Shown here: positions 1 through 12,486 of the stretch, one piece after another | Position numbering within the stretch: the stretch's first letter is position 1 | How the letters are laid out: the number at the start of each line of letters is the position of its first letter | NCBI GenBank assembly: GCA_017528825.1 | Contig: JAFXOI010000023.1 | Coordinates: forward strand, 1-64,000 | Source of the DNA: Elusimicrobiaceae bacterium | GTDB lineage: Bacteria > Elusimicrobiota > Elusimicrobia > Elusimicrobiales > Elusimicrobiaceae | Length of the DNA: 64,000 nucleotides | Direction: 5' to 3' | Notes under the pieces: model-generated | What the model saw: the letters and a program-made list of their open reading frames with translations, nothing else | Database searches by the model: none | Told to the model about the DNA's origin: nothing | Program-made: the position numbers and the translations under genes

Positions 1-1448
1 ACGGTATAAGTGGTACTATCAAACGTAAAAGGCACATCGCTCCAACCGGAAGAGACACAAGCTACCCCCCCACTATTTACAACAGGGACTAAAGACTGTC
101 CACCAGATGAAATAATATAGATGTTATCGGGATATATATAGGTACGATATGCCACACCATTACTTTCAATAATTTGTGTTCGGCCATTGCTTTCATGAAT
201 TATAAAGGGTACTCCAGCTATTGTTATGACTCTCGAATCAAAGGTGTTTATTGCACTTCCATTAATGATATGTTGACTACCATTAGAATTAAAGTGATTG
301 GTAATAGCTACCGCATTATTGTTAATTTCTTGCGTACCCTTGCCTATCCAATTGGTATGAGCAGAACCACCATGCACAAATTGACCACCATCCAATTCTT
401 CATCATCATTATAAAAATAGTTACTAACTGCTATTCCACCATGAATAGATTGCCAAGCTCCATTTCCGCTGATCGTATTTACAACCGCCAATCCGTCTTT
501 AACAAATTGAAATCCTGCATTGCCTGCTTGTCCAATAGTGTTTGAAACAGCCGTTCCACCGGAAACCAGTTGTGCCCCGGCGTTAATGGTAGTTTTGAAG
601 GCAGAACCGCCGCTAATACTCCATTTGTAAGCCGTTAAATCTTCTAGATTGTCTTTGTCATAGGCCCCGGAAGCTACGGTAGTGCTGATTGCAGTACCCC
701 CCGTAATTTTTACGGCACCTCCTGCATAGACATTGGTATTACTAGTGGTTCCTCCTTTTACATTTTGGGAACCATTGATTAAAATTTGAGTGTTACTTGC
801 GACACCGCCAGACACTACTTGTTGTCCGCCTCCACTGATGATGCTGCTTGTCGCAGTTCCATTGTAAACGATTTGAGAACCGCCATTTGATATGATGGTA
901 CTACTGGTTTGTCCTCCGATACGAACAAATTGAGAACCGCCGTTTGATATGATGGTATTAGATGTAACACCATAGTTGGAAACTACTTGGGATCCACCAT
1001 TGTAAATAATGGCAGAAGAAGCAACCGCTGAACTGGTTGCATTCCCTTCTACATATTCTATTCCACCATTATAGACAGATGTTTGTACAGATCTACCACC
1101 GGAAGAAATAGTAATATGTCCCCCATTGTTTACTACAAATTTAGAAAATGTATCACCATCATTCGCCACATATCCATAAACCGGAGGATCAACATCTAAA
1201 TTCGGCACTACATACCCGGTCCAAGTATCTGCATATGCCGGTAAAGCCATGTTTTGCGCTAACATGGCTGCCATTGTACCCGTGTACACAATGCGCTTCC
1301 CGCCTTCAACAATACGGCTGTAATGAGCCGCAAAACCACAACTGCTGGAAAGCAAATACTCACTGGTAAGTGCTGCACGGCTGGCGCACCATTCGTGCTC
1401 CAAATTTACAATACATGAACTGACGGGAATATTTTGATGTTTTTTCAT
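1..1448 (-). CDS. AIDA-type repeat autotransporter adhesin, N-terminal part (runs off window)
   Basis: The reading frame is open from an ATG at 1448 to the window edge, about 482 codons, with no stop. The N-terminus has a roughly 73-residue leader ending in a hydrophobic stretch and a good signal-peptidase site (LPAYA before DTW). After this come degenerate repeats of about 19-20 residues of the form STIISNGGSQ-V-x-GG-x-ATS, seen clearly at about 660-1080. This is the strand-loop-strand repeat of AIDA-I/TibA-like passenger domains, the substrate of autotransporter heptosyltransferases. The beta-barrel or other anchor would lie beyond the window. The ATG overlaps the stop of the upstream heptosyltransferase (ATGA), so the two are probably translationally coupled. 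The likely role is surface adhesion or biofilm; the family call is firm from the repeats, the exact ligand unknown. Confidence 0.85.
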   Translation of the reverse strand, partial: MKKHQNIPVSSCIVNLEHEWCASRAALTSEYLLSSSCGFAAHYSRIVEGGKRIVYTGTMAAMLAQNMALPAYADTWTGYVVPNLDVDPPVYGYVANDGDTFSKFVVNNGGHITISSGGRSVQTSVYNGGIEYVEGNATSSAVASSAIIYNGGSQVVSNYGVTSNTIISNGGSQFVRIGGQTSSTIISNGGSQIVYNGTATSSIISGGGQQVVSGGVASNTQILINGSQNVKGGTTSNTNVYAGGAVKITGGTAISTTVASGAYDKDNLEDLTAYKWSISGGSAFKTTINAGAQLVSGGTAVSNTIGQAGNAGFQFVKDGLAVVNTISGNGAWQSIHGGIAVSNYFYNDDEELDGGQFVHGGSAHTNWIGKGTQEINNNAVAITNHFNSNGSQHIINGSAINTFDSRVITIAGVPFIIHESNGRTQIIESNGVAYRTYIYPDNIYIISSGGQSLVPVVNSGGVACVSSGWSDVPFTFDSTTYT

Positions 1449-2848
1449 TTTTTCTTATCCTTGTTTGGCGGTGTTAAGCGCAAATCCGCCATTAATCTTT
1501 TAATATGGCCAATGACTTGTTTGCCCGTAATTAAACGGGTGCATTCATACTGACGGTCTGTGTTCTTAAACTTTGGACACCAGAAATAATCATAGTGGTC
1601 AAAGTTTTCATTCACATTATCCCAACAGCCTTTGCAGCCGTGGGTACTATATACACGGTACGGCGTAAAAAATTCACAAATGGGCAAAGTAAATCCGCTA
1701 ATCATAATTACCGGCGTATGGGCACACCAGGCTAACCATGAAAGACCGGAGGAAAGCCCAATAAAGAAGTCCGCATGTTCCAAGAGGGCAATCCGCTCTT
1801 GCAGCGGTTTTGGCCCTGTAAAATCTTCCAGTCCCTGCGGCATGCGATTCCATACAAAACCGGAACCTACTATGGGTTCTTTATCAATGCACAACACGCG
1901 ATAACCCATTTCTTTCAAGTAAGCAATTACCTGCTCCCAGCCATATCCATTATTCCAAAACTTAGCTTGGGAACTGGATTTTGTGGCTACTACTACATAG
2001 CGTTCTTTAATCGTACGTTTATTTCCTAAACGCACACGAGGAGCTTCTTCTCTCGGGTCTACCCCTAAAATATATCCTGCTGTTTTGTGTAGGCCTACTT
2101 GACGGAAATCGAACGGTTGGTCTATGTTATTACCCCGGAAAAATAGTCCCATACGATAAGAGGCATAGGGTTTTGGAAAGCGAAATTTTTTCGTGGGCAA
2201 ATGTGTAAAAAATAAATTAGGATATTGTGCTTCAAAAATTTCTGCCATTGGTTTAGCCAGGGTGATTTCTGTCGCACATTGGTGTTTTTCTTGAAAGCGG
2301 TGCGCGTAGGTCATCCAACCGATCGTGTCACCCAAGGTGCCCACCGGAAAATTGATTTGTACTTCTTTGCCTTTCAAATTCATGGTATGATTGAGAATCG
2401 GTTCTGCTTGCCCCTGTATCCAGACTTTCAAACGGAAGGGAATGTAATACTTTTTGGCACTTAATACCCAGCCTTCTTCCGTGTCACAGGCAAAGATGAT
2501 ATTGTCGCTTTCATCATCCTCAATTTGCACGTGCCATTTACCTTTGGGTAATAAAATACGCGCTCCGTCGTTAAAATCATACCGGATGCCCATGGGCCCT
2601 TCTTGGGTAGGAATAGCCGGAACAGGCACTTGGAAAGGGTTGTAAGGTTGATTTTTACCTGCCGTGTTGACCGAGCCGGTTACATCTTGCGGAGCTGCAA
2701 CAGCGGAACTGACCTGTACGGTTCCTTGCGGAGGTACAGAGGCTTGGGCCGAAATCCCTGAGGTAGTAACAGCCGAATTTTGGGCAGTATTTACCGTCTG
2801 AGAATTAGTATTTTGAGACGCAGCAGATGCAGATGTATTTTCTGGCAT
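1445..2848 (-). CDS. Autotransporter O-heptosyltransferase (TibC/Aah-like)
   Basis: This 467-residue protein resembles the bacterial autotransporter heptosyltransferases that add heptose to Ser/Thr of AIDA-type adhesins in the cytoplasm. Residues 1-70 are a Ser/Thr/Ala/Gln-rich, probably disordered tail. The catalytic body follows, with a GT-B-like C-terminal half (ADFFIGLSSGLSWLAW near 360-374, the nucleotide-sugar site region). Cysteines 405, 408, 424 and 436 form C-x2-C-x15-C-x11-C, the iron-finger pattern known from TibC. The start has an AAGGGA ribosome site. Its stop overlaps the start of the repeat adhesin by four bases, so enzyme and substrate are made from one mRNA. The N-terminal tail is unusual; otherwise length and motifs fit the family. 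Confidence 0.88.
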   Translation of the reverse strand: MPENTSASAASQNTNSQTVNTAQNSAVTTSGISAQASVPPQGTVQVSSAVAAPQDVTGSVNTAGKNQPYNPFQVPVPAIPTQEGPMGIRYDFNDGARILLPKGKWHVQIEDDESDNIIFACDTEEGWVLSAKKYYIPFRLKVWIQGQAEPILNHTMNLKGKEVQINFPVGTLGDTIGWMTYAHRFQEKHQCATEITLAKPMAEIFEAQYPNLFFTHLPTKKFRFPKPYASYRMGLFFRGNNIDQPFDFRQVGLHKTAGYILGVDPREEAPRVRLGNKRTIKERYVVVATKSSSQAKFWNNGYGWEQVIAYLKEMGYRVLCIDKEPIVGSGFVWNRMPQGLEDFTGPKPLQERIALLEHADFFIGLSSGLSWLAWCAHTPVIMISGFTLPICEFFTPYRVYSTHGCKGCWDNVNENFDHYDYFWCPKFKNTDRQYECTRLITGKQVIGHIKRLMADLRLTPPNKDKKK

Positions 2849-3004: not shown

Positions 3005-3031
3005 GGAAAATAGGACGAAAAAAACGGAGAG
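3005..3031. repeat. Direct repeat, left copy (tRNA-Ser 3' flank)
   Basis: The 27 bases match 3471-3498 except for one A fewer in the A-run. The shared part covers GGAAAATAGGAC, the A-run and CGGAGAG, the last being the tRNA-Ser acceptor 3' strand read on the plus strand. Confidence 0.75.
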
Positions 3032-3185
3032 AGATGAATTTGAATAATCAGTTCCAGAAAAAGTTTTTCAAAGTAAAAAGCTCTAATTCTAGGCGTTTGC
3101 GAGGAAGGTATATTGTCGGAAACGCGCGCGGAAGCGCGGAAGTATCCGACCGAGCAAATAACAAAGAATTAGGGATTTTTAGGCA

Positions 3186-3212
3186 GAAAAAAAACGGAGA
3201 GGGAGGGATTTG
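3186..3212. repeat. Direct repeat, middle copy, identical to tRNA-Ser 3' end
   Basis: These 27 bases are identical to 3483-3509. They contain eight A, the complement of the tRNA acceptor 3' strand and the T-arm up to the T-loop. A second tRNA 3' end at 297 bases from the real one is the usual appearance of an att site or of the scar of a tRNA-targeted insertion. Confidence 0.85.
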
Positions 3213-3326: not shown

Positions 3327-3482
3327 ACGCGGCATAAAGCAGTTTATGCCGTTCCAACCTATCACATTTTTTCTAACTATTTCCCCCAGTAACAAGGCCG
3401 CAACGACCGAGCGTGTACTGTAAAAGGGCAGAGCCCGAAGTACCCGAGGGAGTGAGAACGAAGTTACCGGGGAAAATAGGAC

Positions 3483-3509
3483 GAAAAAAAACGGAGAGGG
3501 AGGGATTTG
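3483..3509. repeat. Direct repeat, tRNA-proximal copy
   Basis: This copy overlaps the 3' end of tRNA-Ser. On the minus strand it comprises the T-loop half, the acceptor 3' strand, the discriminator G and a run of eight T that probably acts as the terminator of the tRNA. It is identical to 3186-3212. Confidence 0.85.
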
Positions 3510-3582
3510 AACCCTCGATACAGGAGTTAACCTGTATGGCGGTTTAGCAAACCGCTGCCTTCAGCCTCTCGGCCACCTCTCC
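3492..3582 (-). tRNA. tRNA-Ser (anticodon GCU)
   Basis: The minus strand folds as a class II tRNA. The acceptor stem is GGAGAGG/CCTCTCC with discriminator G at 3492. The anticodon stem GCGGT/ACCGC holds the loop TTGCTAA (anticodon GCT, serine AGC/AGU codons). There is a long variable arm TACAGG/CCTGTA and a T-arm GAGGG-TTCAAAT-CCCTC. The 3' CCA is not encoded; a T-run follows directly. Its 3' end is repeated further along the minus strand, on the side where the adhesin module lies. Confidence 0.97.
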
Positions 3583-5763: not shown

Positions 5764-6486
5764 CTATTTCTCCTGTTTGAATTCTACAGTTACCGTTAAC
5801 TCATCCTTTTCATATAGCATTGGTAAAGGCGGGAAAGGCCCCGCATTGATAACCGATGATCTGGCTGCAAAATCAAAACTGTCATCTTCTGAAGATTTAA
5901 CTATTTTCAAATCTTTTATTTTACCGTCCCGTGCAATGGCAAATGAAACCATCGTAGCCAAAGTAGATCCGATAGGACGACGTTTCTCCCATTCACTCCA
6001 CAAGCTGTTACGTACTTGCGTAATATACCAAGGATAAGGGAAAGTGGCAAAATCTGTTTGGATGTTTCCCCCCTCAAATTCGCCTTCTTCGTCGTTACTA
6101 TCCGAAGGCGGAGTATCTGCCGGTTTTTCTTCATCATCCAATATGCTTGGAGTTTCCAAGGGGGCTGCCGGTTTTGGCTCCTCTTTTTTCTTAGGTTGTT
6201 TTTTGGCTGAAATTTCAGCCTTGGAGTCATATGCTTTTTTAGTCTGTTTTTTTGCTTCGGGAGCTTTTTCAGCCGGTTTTTGTACCTCTTTTTTGACTTC
6301 CTCGGCTTTAGGAGTTTCAACCGGCTGTTGCACTTTGGGCTGTTGCATAGACACCACTTTCCCAGTGCCGATAAAGTCTATCGTATAAGTGGCTTTTTCT
6401 TCTTTTTTTGACGACGAAAACGCCACCAGCACTATTAGCGCTAGCAACAAATGAAATGCACAGGATAAAGCAAAATAGCGATTCAT
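5764..6486 (-). CDS. TonB/TolA-like energy-transducing protein
   Basis: The 240-residue protein has a single N-terminal membrane anchor (residues about 5-24), then a Lys/Pro/Glu/Ala-rich spacer (about 45-120) and a C-terminal domain with the TonB_C-like features GSTLATMVSFAIARDGKIKDLKIVKSS and a final strand LTVTVEFKQ. Such proteins span the periplasm and transmit the proton-motive force from an ExbB/ExbD or TolQ/TolR motor to outer-membrane partners. The gene directly follows the tolR/exbD homologue without a gap. TolA or TonB cannot be told apart from the sequence; no tolB or pal is nearby. Confidence 0.82.
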   Translation of the reverse strand: MNRYFALSCAFHLLLALIVLVAFSSSKKEEKATYTIDFIGTGKVVSMQQPKVQQPVETPKAEEVKKEVQKPAEKAPEAKKQTKKAYDSKAEISAKKQPKKKEEPKPAAPLETPSILDDEEKPADTPPSDSNDEEGEFEGGNIQTDFATFPYPWYITQVRNSLWSEWEKRRPIGSTLATMVSFAIARDGKIKDLKIVKSSEDDSFDFAARSSVINAGPFPPLPMLYEKDELTVTVEFKQEK

Positions 6487-6888
6487 TTAGTTTTTAGAAA
6501 GCACTCCGATTCCCAATTTGGCAGCTCCCAATTTTTTCGCCACATCAAATACATCTACCACGGTTTGTATGGGTACAGATTTATCGGCTTCTACCAAAAT
6601 GGTTTTCTTATTGGCTTTTCCCATTCGTAATACTAGTTCACGCTCCAGATTTTTAAGCGTATAGGTGCGGTTATCCAAACGGATATTCCCATCCTTTTGC
6701 ACCTCAATCCGGATCACATCATCTTCTGCTGTGGTATTAATAGCATTAGACTTAGGCAAATCTACATTCATTTGCATTTGAACCAAGAGTGGACTCATGA
6801 CCATAAAAATAATCAACAAAATTAACGTGATGTCTATAAAAGGCACCATGTTAATTTCTGCCATGACAGTTCGTTTCTTATGAGACAT
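6487..6888 (-). CDS. ExbD/TolR family biopolymer transport protein
   Basis: The 133-residue protein has the ExbD/TolR build: a short cytoplasmic N-terminus, one membrane segment with the essential Asp (MVPFIDITLILLIIFMV, D19) and a periplasmic domain of about 90 residues. Together with the upstream TolQ homologue it would form the proton-driven motor, acting on the adjacent TonB/TolA-like protein. It begins three bases after the tolQ stop and has only a weak ribosome site, so it is probably translationally coupled. Confidence 0.92.
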   Translation of the reverse strand: MSHKKRTVMAEINMVPFIDITLILLIIFMVMSPLLVQMQMNVDLPKSNAINTTAEDDVIRIEVQKDGNIRLDNRTYTLKNLERELVLRMGKANKKTILVEADKSVPIQTVVDVFDVAKKLGAAKLGIGVLSKN

Positions 6889-6891
6889 AAC

Positions 6892-7530
6892 TTACCCGCG
6901 CTGTTGGAAGATAATTTCGTCAGAAATATTTTCTAATTCTTTACCAAAATAATTTGTTTTGGATAAGAAATAGTTATACGCAATTACGGCCGGAATAGCT
7001 ACAAATAAACCGGCTGCCGTGTTTACCAAAGCCTCTGCAATACCGGCAGCTACAACGGAAGCCCCTCCGGCGGAAGCAGAAGCGGCGGCCAAATCCTTGA
7101 AGGCATGAATAACGCCGATAACAGTACCGAATAACCCAATAAACGGAGTAATACTGCCTAGCGTACCCAAAATGGTCAGTTTCCGTTGTAATTTAGTCAC
7201 TTCCCAATCAATAACTGAATTGGAGATTTCTTTGAGTTCTTCTTTATTACGGTCACGTTTGTTAAGCAGGGCCATAATTACTTTAGCGGCAGAAGTTTCT
7301 TTGGTCGATTCTTTTTGGCAAGCATCTTGTACTTTTTCGTAATTATTAGAGTGAATAGGATGGCGGCAATATGCGATTAATTTGCGTGACATTCCGATAT
7401 TTGTACGAAACTTAAAAAAACGCTCTGCAATAACTGCCCACGAATAAATGGACAATAATAACAGCAAAATAAATATGGGTCCTCCCGCGGCAAATAACTC
7501 CCGCACATTTGTCATACTTGATAATTCCAT
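6892..7530 (-). CDS. MotA/TolQ/ExbB proton channel family protein
   Basis: The 212-residue protein has three membrane segments (about residues 14-36, 120-145 and 160-190) and the conserved Thr/Gly-rich region ILGTLGSITPFIGLFGTVIGVI typical of TolQ/ExbB. It is the pentameric channel component of a motor that uses proton flow to power outer-membrane functions such as envelope constriction (Tol) or nutrient import (TonB). A clear AAGGAG ribosome site precedes the ATG. It heads the motor block tolQ-tolR-tonB-like inside the ftsK operon; its place next to ftsK and pgsA favours an envelope or division role. Confidence 0.93.
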   Translation of the reverse strand: MELSSMTNVRELFAAGGPIFILLLLLSIYSWAVIAERFFKFRTNIGMSRKLIAYCRHPIHSNNYEKVQDACQKESTKETSAAKVIMALLNKRDRNKEELKEISNSVIDWEVTKLQRKLTILGTLGSITPFIGLFGTVIGVIHAFKDLAAASASAGGASVVAAGIAEALVNTAAGLFVAIPAVIAYNYFLSKTNYFGKELENISDEIIFQQRG

Positions 7531-7582
7531 GTTTTTTCTCCTTTACTTATCTAAATCAGCGGTAACACCGCAAACACGCAGG

Positions 7583-8077
7583 TTATAAAAGACCCGCGTG
7601 GGTTAAAATTACAAAAATCTGTATCAATATATTAGACACCGCTCCGGCGGCCACATCGTCTAATACCACTCCCCAAGCATTGGGAATGCGGTCAAAATAA
7701 GATACCGGCCACGGCTTAAGCGTATCCAAGGTGCGAAACAGCACAAAAGCCGCCAATAAATACGGCCACGAATGAGGCAACAGCCACATGGCTGTAAAAT
7801 ATCCCACTATTTCGTCTAGTACAATTTTAGGGTTGTCATGCCCTTTGTATTGCCCGGGCAATTTGGCTTTCGCACATACCCATACACTAAATAAACAAAA
7901 AACGACTAATAATACAGTTTGCCATACGGCTTGTTTAGGCCACAGTAAATAAACACAAGGAACGGCAAGCAATGTCCCCAAAAAACCGGCTCCCGTATTT
8001 TTCTTGAAGGGAATTACTAAAGCTGGTAAATAACTAATGTAAAAACCGCTAGCTAGTAAATTAATGAGTTTTTGCAT
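7583..8077 (-). CDS. pgpA: Phosphatidylglycerophosphatase A
   Basis: This 164-residue membrane enzyme removes phosphate from phosphatidylglycerophosphate to yield phosphatidylglycerol. Family signatures are visible: an acidic stretch DNPKIVLDEIVGY near residue 82, LDTLKPWPVSYFD near 118 and LDDVAAGAVSN near 139, with four hydrophobic segments. It overlaps the upstream pgsA by 17 bases, which supports both calls because the two enzymes act in succession. Confidence 0.93.
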   Translation of the reverse strand: MQKLINLLASGFYISYLPALVIPFKKNTGAGFLGTLLAVPCVYLLWPKQAVWQTVLLVVFCLFSVWVCAKAKLPGQYKGHDNPKIVLDEIVGYFTAMWLLPHSWPYLLAAFVLFRTLDTLKPWPVSYFDRIPNAWGVVLDDVAAGAVSNILIQIFVILTHAGLL

Positions 8078-8687
8078 TTGGCAAACTCCATGATTTTCGG
8101 AGCAATTCCCAATTATTTTTCAAATAAGAAATAGCACTTAGCCAAGTTACCACGGCTGCAATAGCAGTAATGGCATATGGAATCTTGTGCAATGTAATAA
8201 AAATAATACAGCACACCGTTTGGGCAGTACCCTTGAGCAGATGTGACAAATGATAAATATCTAATACAAAAAAGACAACTCCTACCGCTACCAATTGAAT
8301 AACTGTTTTGAATTTCCCCCACCGCTCAGCTGCCATCACTTTGCCTTCCAAGGCGGCAATCACGCGTAAGGTGGAAATCATCAGTTCGCGCAGTAAGATA
8401 AAAAATACAGCCCAAATGGGGACATCTAATTCTTTAATCCCCACAAAGGCAAATAAGGCAGCCGCCACCAAAATTTTATCTACGAACGGATCTACAATCG
8501 CCCCAAACGGAGTGACGGTATTGGTCTGACGGGCAATTTTGCCATCCACCCAATCAGTAGAAGCGGCTACGATAAAAATCAGCGTAGCAGTAAAACGAGC
8601 CCATCCATACGGCAATAAAATGAAAATAAACATGACAATGGAGAGCGCCGCACGAATTAAAGTGATTTTGTTGGCAAGAGTCATCAT
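8061..8687 (-). CDS. pgsA: CDP-diacylglycerol-glycerol-3-phosphate 3-phosphatidyltransferase
   Basis: The 208-residue integral membrane protein carries the CDP-alcohol phosphotransferase signature D-G-x2-A-R-x8-G-x3-D-x3-D (DWVDGKIARQ then FGAIVDPFVDK, about residues 45-71). It makes phosphatidylglycerophosphate from CDP-diacylglycerol and glycerol-3-phosphate. Two consecutive ATG codons are possible starts (8687 or 8684). It begins one base after the lolA stop and overlaps pgpA, the next enzyme of the pathway. Confidence 0.93.
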   Translation of the reverse strand: MMTLANKITLIRAALSIVMFIFILLPYGWARFTATLIFIVAASTDWVDGKIARQTNTVTPFGAIVDPFVDKILVAAALFAFVGIKELDVPIWAVFFILLRELMISTLRVIAALEGKVMAAERWGKFKTVIQLVAVGVVFFVLDIYHLSHLLKGTAQTVCCIIFITLHKIPYAITAIAAVVTWLSAISYLKNNWELLRKSWSLPNAKTH

Positions 8688-8688
8688 T

Positions 8689-9339
8689 TTATTTTAACCC
8701 CTTAAATGTATCAGCTTCCATAGGCTGATTAAGTTGTGTATTATCTAAAGTTGCAACGGTAACCATTAAGTCCGATTCAATACTAATCTTCATGGGGAAA
8801 CAAGTATCGGCCGTCACCGTAATATGCAACACATACAAATTTTTCTCTTTATCCTTCGGCTCTAACCGTAACACAGCGTCAGAGGCATTTGTCTTGGTTA
8901 CGGAAACCTGGTGTTTTTGAAGTAAAGCCGTATAATTGCCGAAATCAAATAAAGCCTGATTAGGTTGTCCGACGAGCCAATCTTTCCAAGCAATTTTATC
9001 TATTTCTTTTCCCTTTTCATCTAAAATGTAAATTTGTTTTTTATTCGTCAAGGCAGTTTGGGTAATTTGACCCTCTTCCAAATTATCTAGGCGCAATTTT
9101 GGGCCTTGTTGGCTGTAAGCAATACGCCCCTTTGAATGGCTAATAGGTATATTATCGTACAGGGTCTCTTGCGTAAAATCAGTTTGCAAAGTATTTAGTT
9201 TACTGTCCCATTCCATCAAGCAGGCTGCGTAATCTTTTTGCACAGGAGTCTTGACCGGCTCGGAGACTTCAGCCCCCGTCACTAAAACGGGACAACAGAT
9301 GATACAACCCACCAACAGTTTATTTATAAACCGTTTCAT
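8689..9339 (-). CDS. lolA: Outer-membrane lipoprotein carrier protein LolA
   Basis: The protein (216 residues from this start) has a signal peptide (MKRFINKLLVGCIICCPVLV) and then the LolA-like region with LNTLQTDFTQETLYD and KGRIAYSQQGPKLRLD, as in the periplasmic chaperone that carries lipoproteins to the outer membrane. The start at 9339 is preferred over an upstream ATG at 9405 because it has a GGAGG ribosome site at good spacing and begins the signal peptide. It overlaps the end of ftsK by 20 bases. The sequence is divergent but both position (ftsK-lolA) and layout fit. Confidence 0.85.
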   Translation of the reverse strand: MKRFINKLLVGCIICCPVLVTGAEVSEPVKTPVQKDYAACLMEWDSKLNTLQTDFTQETLYDNIPISHSKGRIAYSQQGPKLRLDNLEEGQITQTALTNKKQIYILDEKGKEIDKIAWKDWLVGQPNQALFDFGNYTALLQKHQVSVTKTNASDAVLRLEPKDKEKNLYVLHITVTADTCFPMKISIESDLMVTVATLDNTQLNQPMEADTFKGLK

Positions 9340-11650: not shown

Positions 11651-11949
11651 ATAGAGATATTCTACAATTTTATTACTAAATATGGAAATATATTTATCTT
11701 GCGCAGTGGAAATAACTTTGATAGAATAAATCTGAAGTTAAAATTTACGAATTATTTGGTGGAAGTACAGGGAAAGCCTGTATTAGCAAAGCGGTTTAAC
11801 CGCAGCGCCTATTCCAGTCCAACAAATAATCGTCTGCTTTTACGCCTATCCCAATGGGATAGGCGGGCGACGGTTATTACATGGGTTACTGGAATAGCTT
11901 AGGTGATAATCTGTCGCTTTTTTTGCGCCTTCTGCCAAGAGGAGAAAGT
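11651..11949. promoter_or_regulatory. Divergent intergenic region with long palindromic leader before pseudopilin
   Basis: This stretch separates ftsK (minus) from the pseudopilin (plus) and holds no gene. It contains a TACAGG/CCTGTA hairpin (11766-11782), a GCGGTT/AACCGC hairpin (11791-11803) and an 89-base near-palindrome (11809-11897). The palindrome is built of an outer 10-bp perfect stem, a middle stem of 9 of 10 and an inner 10-bp perfect stem with a three-base loop. As RNA it would be a long bulged hairpin ending about 50 bases before the pilin ATG. Function unknown; regulation of pilin expression or a small mobile palindrome are the options. Confidence 0.6.
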
Positions 11950-12486
11950 ATGCAAAAAGTAAAAACAGGGTTTACCCTCATTGAACTATTGGTGGTGGTG
12001 CTTATTATTGGTGTTTTGACAGCCATTGCATTGCCGCAATATAATATTGCTGTCATTAAATCTCGTACGGCCACTATGCTCCCTATTCTAAAAAACCTCG
12101 CTGAAGCACAAGAAGTCTATTATATGAACAATGGAAGATATGCCGGCAAAATAAGCGAATTAGATATACAGTTACCCAATAGTTGTTCTCATGTTGATCA
12201 TGCTTCTTATGATTCTTCTGAAAGAGGAGAACTCATCAAATGTGATGAGTTTTTTCTGATAGATAACGATGGTAATGGAATGAGTATAAATGCCAACTAT
12301 TGTCCCCAAAATAACACTTCGTGGAGCACTTGTTCTCCTAATAGAGATTTTCAAATTGCTTTTCGTTTGGCACACAGAGATTCCCTATATTCTGGTGAAG
12401 GAAATAAAAGATATTGTGCGGTGTATAATCAAAAACTAGGGAAACAAATTTGCTCTGCATTTGGTGGATTGGAATATAAAAACTAA
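11950..12486 (+). CDS. Type IV pilin / type II pseudopilin-like protein
   Basis: From the ATG at 11950 (AGGAG ribosome site, about 8 bases) the protein has 178 residues. It starts with the prepilin leader MQKVKTG, cleaved before FTLIELLVVVLIIGVL, with Glu at mature position 5. A hydrophobic helix follows, and then a globular domain with an aromatic EVYYMNNGRYA stretch and several Cys. A longer in-frame start at 11881 lacks a ribosome site and would bury the leader. No assembly ATPase or prepilin peptidase is near, so this is an isolated minor pilin or PulG-type protein served by machinery encoded elsewhere. It is preceded by an unusual structured leader. Confidence 0.92.
   Translation: MQKVKTGFTLIELLVVVLIIGVLTAIALPQYNIAVIKSRTATMLPILKNLAEAQEVYYMNNGRYAGKISELDIQLPNSCSHVDHASYDSSERGELIKCDEFFLIDNDGNGMSINANYCPQNNTSWSTCSPNRDFQIAFRLAHRDSLYSGEGNKRYCAVYNQKLGKQICSAFGGLEYKN

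Follow-up and report, generated by a model that had tools for sequence, protein, structure and literature searches.

The window analysed here, the first 64 kb of the 65,854-base contig C23 from the genome of an Elusimicrobiaceae bacterium (G000; 1.53 Mb in 41 contigs, 95% complete), begins with two tightly coupled genes that very probably form an operon for a heptosylated autotransporter of type Va. The first gene (positions 1445-2848, minus strand, as are all features of the pair given below) encodes a 467-amino-acid protein of the TibC/Aah family of bacterial autotransporter heptosyltransferases (BAHTs), a family said to have been defined by Lu in 2014. The second (3-1448) runs off the end of C23 and supplies the first 482 amino acids of an autotransporter adhesin with AIDA repeats. 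As an initial annotation, made from the letters of the window, had pointed out, the stop codon of the enzyme gene overlaps the start codon of the adhesin gene in an ATGA (1445-1448, read from the sequence). A purine-rich stretch resembling a ribosome-binding site lies a few bases upstream of both open reading frames (ORFs) alike, and a candidate Shine-Dalgarno sequence, AAGGAT, precedes the adhesin at 1457-1462.

In the mechanism that we propose, the first gene would provide a TibC/Aah-type heptosyltransferase, probably an iron-finger dodecamer; the second, coupled to it in translation, would encode a long adhesin whose strand-loop-strand repeats form a beta-helix. In the cytoplasm, and before export, the enzyme would transfer heptose to serine and threonine residues in the repeat loops, the donor being ADP-heptose from the pathway encoded in the genome itself. 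The adhesin would then pass the inner membrane via Sec behind a Cys/Ser-rich extended leader, its barrel would enter the outer membrane and display the glycosylated passenger, and its C-terminal tail would remain in the periplasm, probably as an anchor to peptidoglycan in those relatives where it has an OmpA domain.

The ORF at 1445-2848 can be assigned confidently, from its sequence, to the BAHT family. The predicted protein scores 563.4 bits (E = 2.1e-169) against TIGR04414, the model for autotransporter strand-loop-strand O-heptosyltransferases, whose curated cut-off is 200. Pfam recognises PF21129 (TibC_1st, N-terminal) with 110.9 bits and PF01075 (GT9) with 36.3 bits, and residues 70-455 match the TibC crystal structures 4rap (E = 7e-160) and 4rb4 (E = 2e-159), 218 of 384 aligned residues being identical (57%). 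We mapped functional residues onto the enzyme with the roles and TibC numbering given in the parts of PMC4358343 used here. The TibC catalytic base Asp110 corresponds to Asp174 (codon at 2327-2329), which is invariant in 24 aligned rows, and the sugar-site residues Arg286, Trp305 and Lys230 are all kept, as R352, W371 and K296. The iron finger Cys405-x2-Cys408-x15-Cys424-x11-Cys436 (1541-1636) aligns with TibC Cys339/342/358/370. The family is further characterised by a beta-hairpin thumb and a dodecamer in the shape of a ring. Both the TibC/Aah-like O-heptosyltransferase and the C-x2-C-x15-C-x11-C iron motif named in the initial annotation are thus borne out. A further sugar-site residue, TibC Thr226, is replaced by Ser292, and the position of TibC Pro300 is also occupied by Ser; according to the same parts of PMC4358343, Pro300 sets the stereoselectivity of TibC and AAH has Ser in its place, which by analogy predicts that the elusimicrobial enzyme may use both D,D- and L,D-heptose donors. 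Outside the TibC match, which begins at query residue 70, lies a low-complexity N-terminal extension of about 76 amino acids (2621-2848) with a PQDVTxSVN-like motif, and this extension is common to most elusimicrobial relatives in the 24-row alignment.

The AIDA-type repeats attributed to the second gene were recovered as well, with TIGR04415 matching in six stretches and the Pfam family AIDA (PF16168) in three. Together with an NF033176 match at residues 93-468, they delimit a strand-loop-strand region (45-1172) that we presume to be the heptose acceptor. The initial annotation had described the pair as a self-contained module; the enzyme and the repeats are present, but the adhesin is incomplete in the window and its likely remainder stands elsewhere in the assembly. 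All 22 TIGR04415 matches of the genome fall into two frames, namely the window adhesin and a 1441-amino-acid frame that is already open where contig C2 begins (G000:C2:2-4327, locus L057) and runs through AIDA repeats into a barrel. The autotransporter barrel PF03797 scores 93.8 bits in this C2 frame and 92.6 bits when the C-terminal part is scanned alone. An AlphaFold model of its C-terminal 392 residues shows a helix followed by barrel strands (mean predicted local distance difference test, pLDDT, 83.8; residues 349-392 below 50), and Foldseek matched this model to the barrels of BrkA, EspP and AIDA-I (transport unit 4mee). Because each of the two frames has what the other lacks, we take the C2 frame as the likely rest of the window adhesin. 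Two results weigh against this picture: C23 and C2 have no suffix-prefix overlap and share no 15-base word, so that the join rests on exclusion, and a whole-protein Pfam scan listed PF03797 in only one of five adhesins. When C-terminal parts were scanned alone, the barrel was found in 10/10. A protein of this architecture would presumably act in adhesion.

The two genes also keep company in relatives of the window's genome. An adhesin directly follows the enzyme in all 18 Elusimicrobiaceae loci with a complete enzyme (the window and 17 others), with gaps of -4 to +27 bases, while in G102 and in the Endomicrobium genome G299 the autotransporter lies upstream of the enzyme instead. Strong TIGR04415 repeats (E <= 1e-9, the four BAHT genomes without a match that strong being scored as misses) occur in 15 of the 19 BAHT genomes of Elusimicrobiaceae vs 3 of the 71 others (Fisher p 5.9e-11, with genomes treated as independent, although they are not). 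The three repeat-positive genomes without a detected enzyme are 69-86% complete, and two of them have the leader discussed below. These associations bear on the idea that the protein is a BAHT-fold glycosyltransferase with another donor sugar or acceptor, for which the neighbouring adhesin is not the main substrate. The positions of both TibC T226 and P300 are Ser in the enzyme, as such a shift might suggest, and the divergent enzymes of G119 and G103, the two most divergent members in the phylum, have no leader-bearing autotransporter nearby. We nevertheless consider it improbable, given that the catalytic Asp and the donor-site Arg, Lys and Trp are kept, that Ser at the P300 place is the AAH state in the parts of PMC4358343 cited, and that the pairing is tight in 18/18 loci and accompanied by the co-occurrence with repeats. 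The residues and the pairing point to a heptosyltransferase whose probable modification sites lie in the adjoining adhesin.

For the donor, the genome offers a heptose kinase on C25 (371 bits) and a heptose adenylyltransferase on C17 (191 bits), both above cut-off. The other two steps are less securely assigned, which counts against the proposal: a GmhB-like phosphatase, encoded roughly 1.3 kb away from the kinase gene, reaches 92 bits vs a cut-off of 150, and a full-length GmhA-like isomerase on C35 reaches 188 bits vs 209. The frames adjoining the GmhB-like gene look, by eye, like a lipid A acyltransferase and LpxK. Since the adenylyltransferase domain (E <= 0.001) occurs in 90/90 Elusimicrobiaceae genomes (above cut-off in 79), the supply of ADP-heptose appears to be general in the family, and the idea that the ADP-heptose genes were acquired together with the glycosylation system is rejected on the same count. 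The family's supply probably serves lipopolysaccharide, and the glycosylation system probably draws on it. With ADP-heptose genes in the genome and a barrel of the adhesin's family on C2 as secretion anchor (again subject to the join by exclusion), none of the three results that the initial annotation had named as speaking against it, namely no match to the heptosyltransferase family, no ADP-heptose pathway and no secretion anchor, was obtained.

Among the named relatives, those 70-77% identical to the enzyme come from metagenome-assembled genomes (MAGs) of Elusimicrobia, several of them from herbivore rumen or rectum by their titles, in agreement with the Elusimicrobiota host proposed from the letters; two enzymes of Endomicrobium MAGs stand at 59%. 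TIGR04414 lies above its cut-off in 24 of 340 Elusimicrobiota genomes, and the enzyme is patchy within the genus (13 of the 66 genomes listed). Among the best 80 of 485 stretches in a contig scan, relatives include Pseudomonadota, Lentisphaerota, Planctomycetota, Verrucomicrobiota, Desulfovibrio and Selenomonas. The suggestion that the host is unusual therefore stands in part: in the literature searched, in which papers on autotransporters, adhesins and Endomicrobium were judged by titles or the starts of abstracts, we found no report of a heptosyltransferase or a BAHT-AIDA system in Elusimicrobiota, but the enzyme is present in 24 genomes of the phylum and in many other groups. The enzyme-first order, which had been read as a deviation, is not one, as in the loci described in the parts of PMC4358343 used here the autotransporter gene often comes after that of its BAHT. 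With BAHTs in many phyla and this order usual, the host is no anomaly: the system itself is known, and it is the phylum that is new, as far as the literature searched goes.

Had an aah-aidA or tib cassette recently been imported horizontally from enterobacteria, the patchy distribution in the genus (13/66) and the adjoining tRNA-Ser gene with its repeated 3' end sequence would fit. Such an import is nonetheless hardly credible. A branch with support of 100/100 separates the labelled Elusimicrobiota rows from the rest of a tree of 84 enzymes, and they are not nested inside Enterobacterales (the tree keeps one poorly clipped 777-residue row, and G103 and G119 are long branches). In G+C content the enzyme-adhesin pair (0.42-0.44) is level with the window as a whole (0.43), and the leader and tail are unlike those of enterobacterial partners. 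Tree and base composition together led us to reject a recent enterobacterial import and to regard the elusimicrobial enzymes as one clade and the system as an old resident.

The tRNA-Ser(GCT) gene (window 3492-3582) adjoins the enzyme gene. Three direct copies of a 33-base sequence that includes its 3' end lie at 3010-3042, 3180-3212 and 3477-3509 (73-100% identical to the reference copy) and look like debris of an old attachment site or repeat. An island at tRNA-Ser as a general rule was rejected, a tRNA of any kind being present in 9 of 25 further enzyme stretches and a Ser tRNA in one of those nine. In the Lentisphaeria loci L186, L193 and L194, the frame after the enzyme begins in repeat-like sequence and has no visible signal peptide and no barrel-like C-terminus; these partners may use a different exit route or stay inside the cell. 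At L084 (G119:C34), the divergent enzyme and a repeat-like frame without visible signal peptide lie side by side (6043-7620 and 7592-8815) among neighbours that appear phage-tail-like by eye, and a phage or tail-fibre use of the G119 enzyme is conceivable.

Less expected than the host are two modifications of the adhesin that make the locus a BAHT-AIDA member with lineage-specific features: a conserved leader at its N-terminus and a tail behind its barrel. Residues 1-50 (1299-1448) form a Cys/Ser-rich extension, defined by N-terminal alignment and genome searches, ahead of a signal-peptide-like hydrophobic segment at residues 51-73 (1230-1298) with a possible AYA/D cleavage site, judged by eye on the alignment. 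The 19 adhesin N-termini that we aligned have in common a Cys/Ser-rich, YCSSCSAAVVSSC-like stretch, followed by GG[KR] and a weak hydrophobic segment; the leader of the window, at 37-53% identity to the others, is among the more divergent ones. None of the 19 gave a usable match to any Pfam or NCBIfam family. The extended signal peptide region ESPR (PF13018) in particular was found in 0/19 leaders and in 0/340 Elusimicrobiota genomes (E. coli served as the positive control), and matched six of the six proteobacterial BAHT partners scanned. Judged by profile searches, then, the leader appears to be a new element, unrelated to ESPR and standing where proteobacterial partners have ESPR.

A search with the leader alignment found it in 25 of the 340 genomes: in 23 of the 26 with the enzyme (a count that includes two fragments below cut-off, in G084 and G295) vs 2 of the 314 without a detected enzyme (Fisher p 2.5e-30, the genomes, listed by hand for both co-occurrence tests, again being treated as independent, which they are not). 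Hand-sorting of the 35 leader matches gave 23 on the enzyme's partner, nine elsewhere in BAHT genomes (one of them on the second gene of a tandem) and three in the two other genomes, and the non-partner frames long enough to read have AIDA-like repeats in 7/7 cases by a loose pattern count. Exceptions run both ways and count against the proposal: the leader is missing from three BAHT genomes and present in two (83% and 86% complete) in which no BAHT was detected.

It is tempting to speculate that the leader is a second, unrelated type of extended signal peptide that delays the Sec export of substrates or passes them to the enzyme, letting glycosylation precede export, and that marks substrates encoded in cis and in trans, with the mature adhesin tied to peptidoglycan by a post-barrel OmpA or equivalent tail. 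We hold this combined reading only tentatively, as doubtful. Alternatively, and as far as the leader alone is concerned, it might be an inherited trait of one adhesin lineage with no role in glycosylation, the genome-level link resulting from both genes moving together. The 23 of 35 matches on adhesins adjoining the enzyme, and the one barrel family common to the leader-bearing frames with a readable barrel, agree with such a plain trait. It is less easily reconciled with the nine leaders that are not on the partner gene and yet occur in BAHT genomes, vs three in the incomplete genomes without a detected BAHT, and with two other autotransporters read in the window's genome, which have ordinary signal peptides, no Cys/Ser-rich leader and an end at the barrel. 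On balance we lean slightly towards the plain trait, which receives more weight than the functional reading.

The barrel of a type Va autotransporter lies at the extreme C-terminus, a rule from which the C2 frame departs, with a Lys-rich tail of 50 residues behind the fitted barrel. Counted from the last residue fitted by a purpose-made barrel model, for which the canonical end is 3, 17 of the 18 elusimicrobial adhesins read to their stop extend 14-433 amino acids beyond the barrel (50 in the C2 frame, 14-433 in 16 others), vs three residues in the Endomicrobium adhesin of G299 and in 7/7 proteobacterial partners fitted by the same model. Six adhesins have an OmpA domain (PF00691) behind the barrel: both of G036, those of G098 and G102, and both of G292. 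In the model of the C-terminal part of the G098 adhesin, the barrel is followed by a disordered linker and by an alpha/beta domain at the place of the Pfam OmpA match, and the Foldseek matches listed for this model are mainly barrel. A common post-barrel helix (D[YF][ST]xMxx[IL]ExxW) was considered and dismissed, as it is seen at the end of four adhesins read to their stop, none of them among these six, and not in the C2 frame. With an even number of strands, both ends of a barrel face the periplasm, so the tail should be periplasmic, and by analogy the OmpA-type tails may bind peptidoglycan. We know of no such order, with an OmpA domain or tail tether behind the barrel, in classical autotransporters, and a literature search judged by titles found no description of an OmpA domain behind a classical autotransporter barrel; the periplasmic module behind a type Va barrel thus seems to be a new domain order. 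The Endomicrobium-like genome G292, a single contig, has two enzyme loci (L082 and L083) with differing adhesins, one of whose tails has an ART-PolyVal match ahead of its OmpA domain. Scattered over the window's genome are, separately, pilin-like genes with a FTLIELLVVVLIIG N-terminus (window 11881-12486; L087 1752-2948, 7477-7956, 12610-13200 and 13477-13965).

A review (PMC8151025, in the part used here) asks by what means the substrates of BAHTs reach the glycosyltransferase rather than being exported immediately, and what sets specificity. The Cys/Ser-rich leader, which follows the enzyme through the phylum and occurs on unlinked adhesins too, is a concrete candidate for this handover. If a domain in the periplasm can come after the last strand of a type Va barrel, as the OmpA domains behind the barrel suggest, this touches on the recognition of the end signal of such barrels. 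Uncultured Elusimicrobiota of the herbivore gut and Endomicrobium, finally, would join the organisms likely to make heptosylated adhesins.

Among known systems, TibC-TibA of enterotoxigenic E. coli resembles the pair in the 57% identity over 384 residues, the catalytic and iron-finger residues, the enzyme gene coming first, the strand-loop-strand passenger and the type Va barrel. Unlike TibC-TibA, the elusimicrobial enzyme has an N-terminal extension of 70-76 amino acids and Ser for TibC Pro300, and the adhesin has a non-ESPR leader and sequence continuing past the barrel. Aah-AIDA-I of diffusely adhering E. coli has in common with the pair the Ser at the stereoselectivity position, the AIDA repeats and the barrel fold (4mee), whereas the elusimicrobial leader and C-terminal tail, and the different phylum, set it apart. 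ESPR is similar to the leader in position and length class, both being N-terminal extensions before a signal-peptide-like core on long autotransporters, but its profile matches none of the 19 leaders and all six proteobacterial BAHT partners. The OmpA-type C-terminal domains, finally, recall the periplasmic domains of inverse autotransporters such as intimin and YeeJ, in which a presumed peptidoglycan-binding domain likewise belongs to a barrel-anchored surface protein. There, as described for the intimin/invasin family (PMC3008723, in the part used here), the barrel sits at the N-terminus, whereas the elusimicrobial OmpA domains come after a classical type Va barrel.

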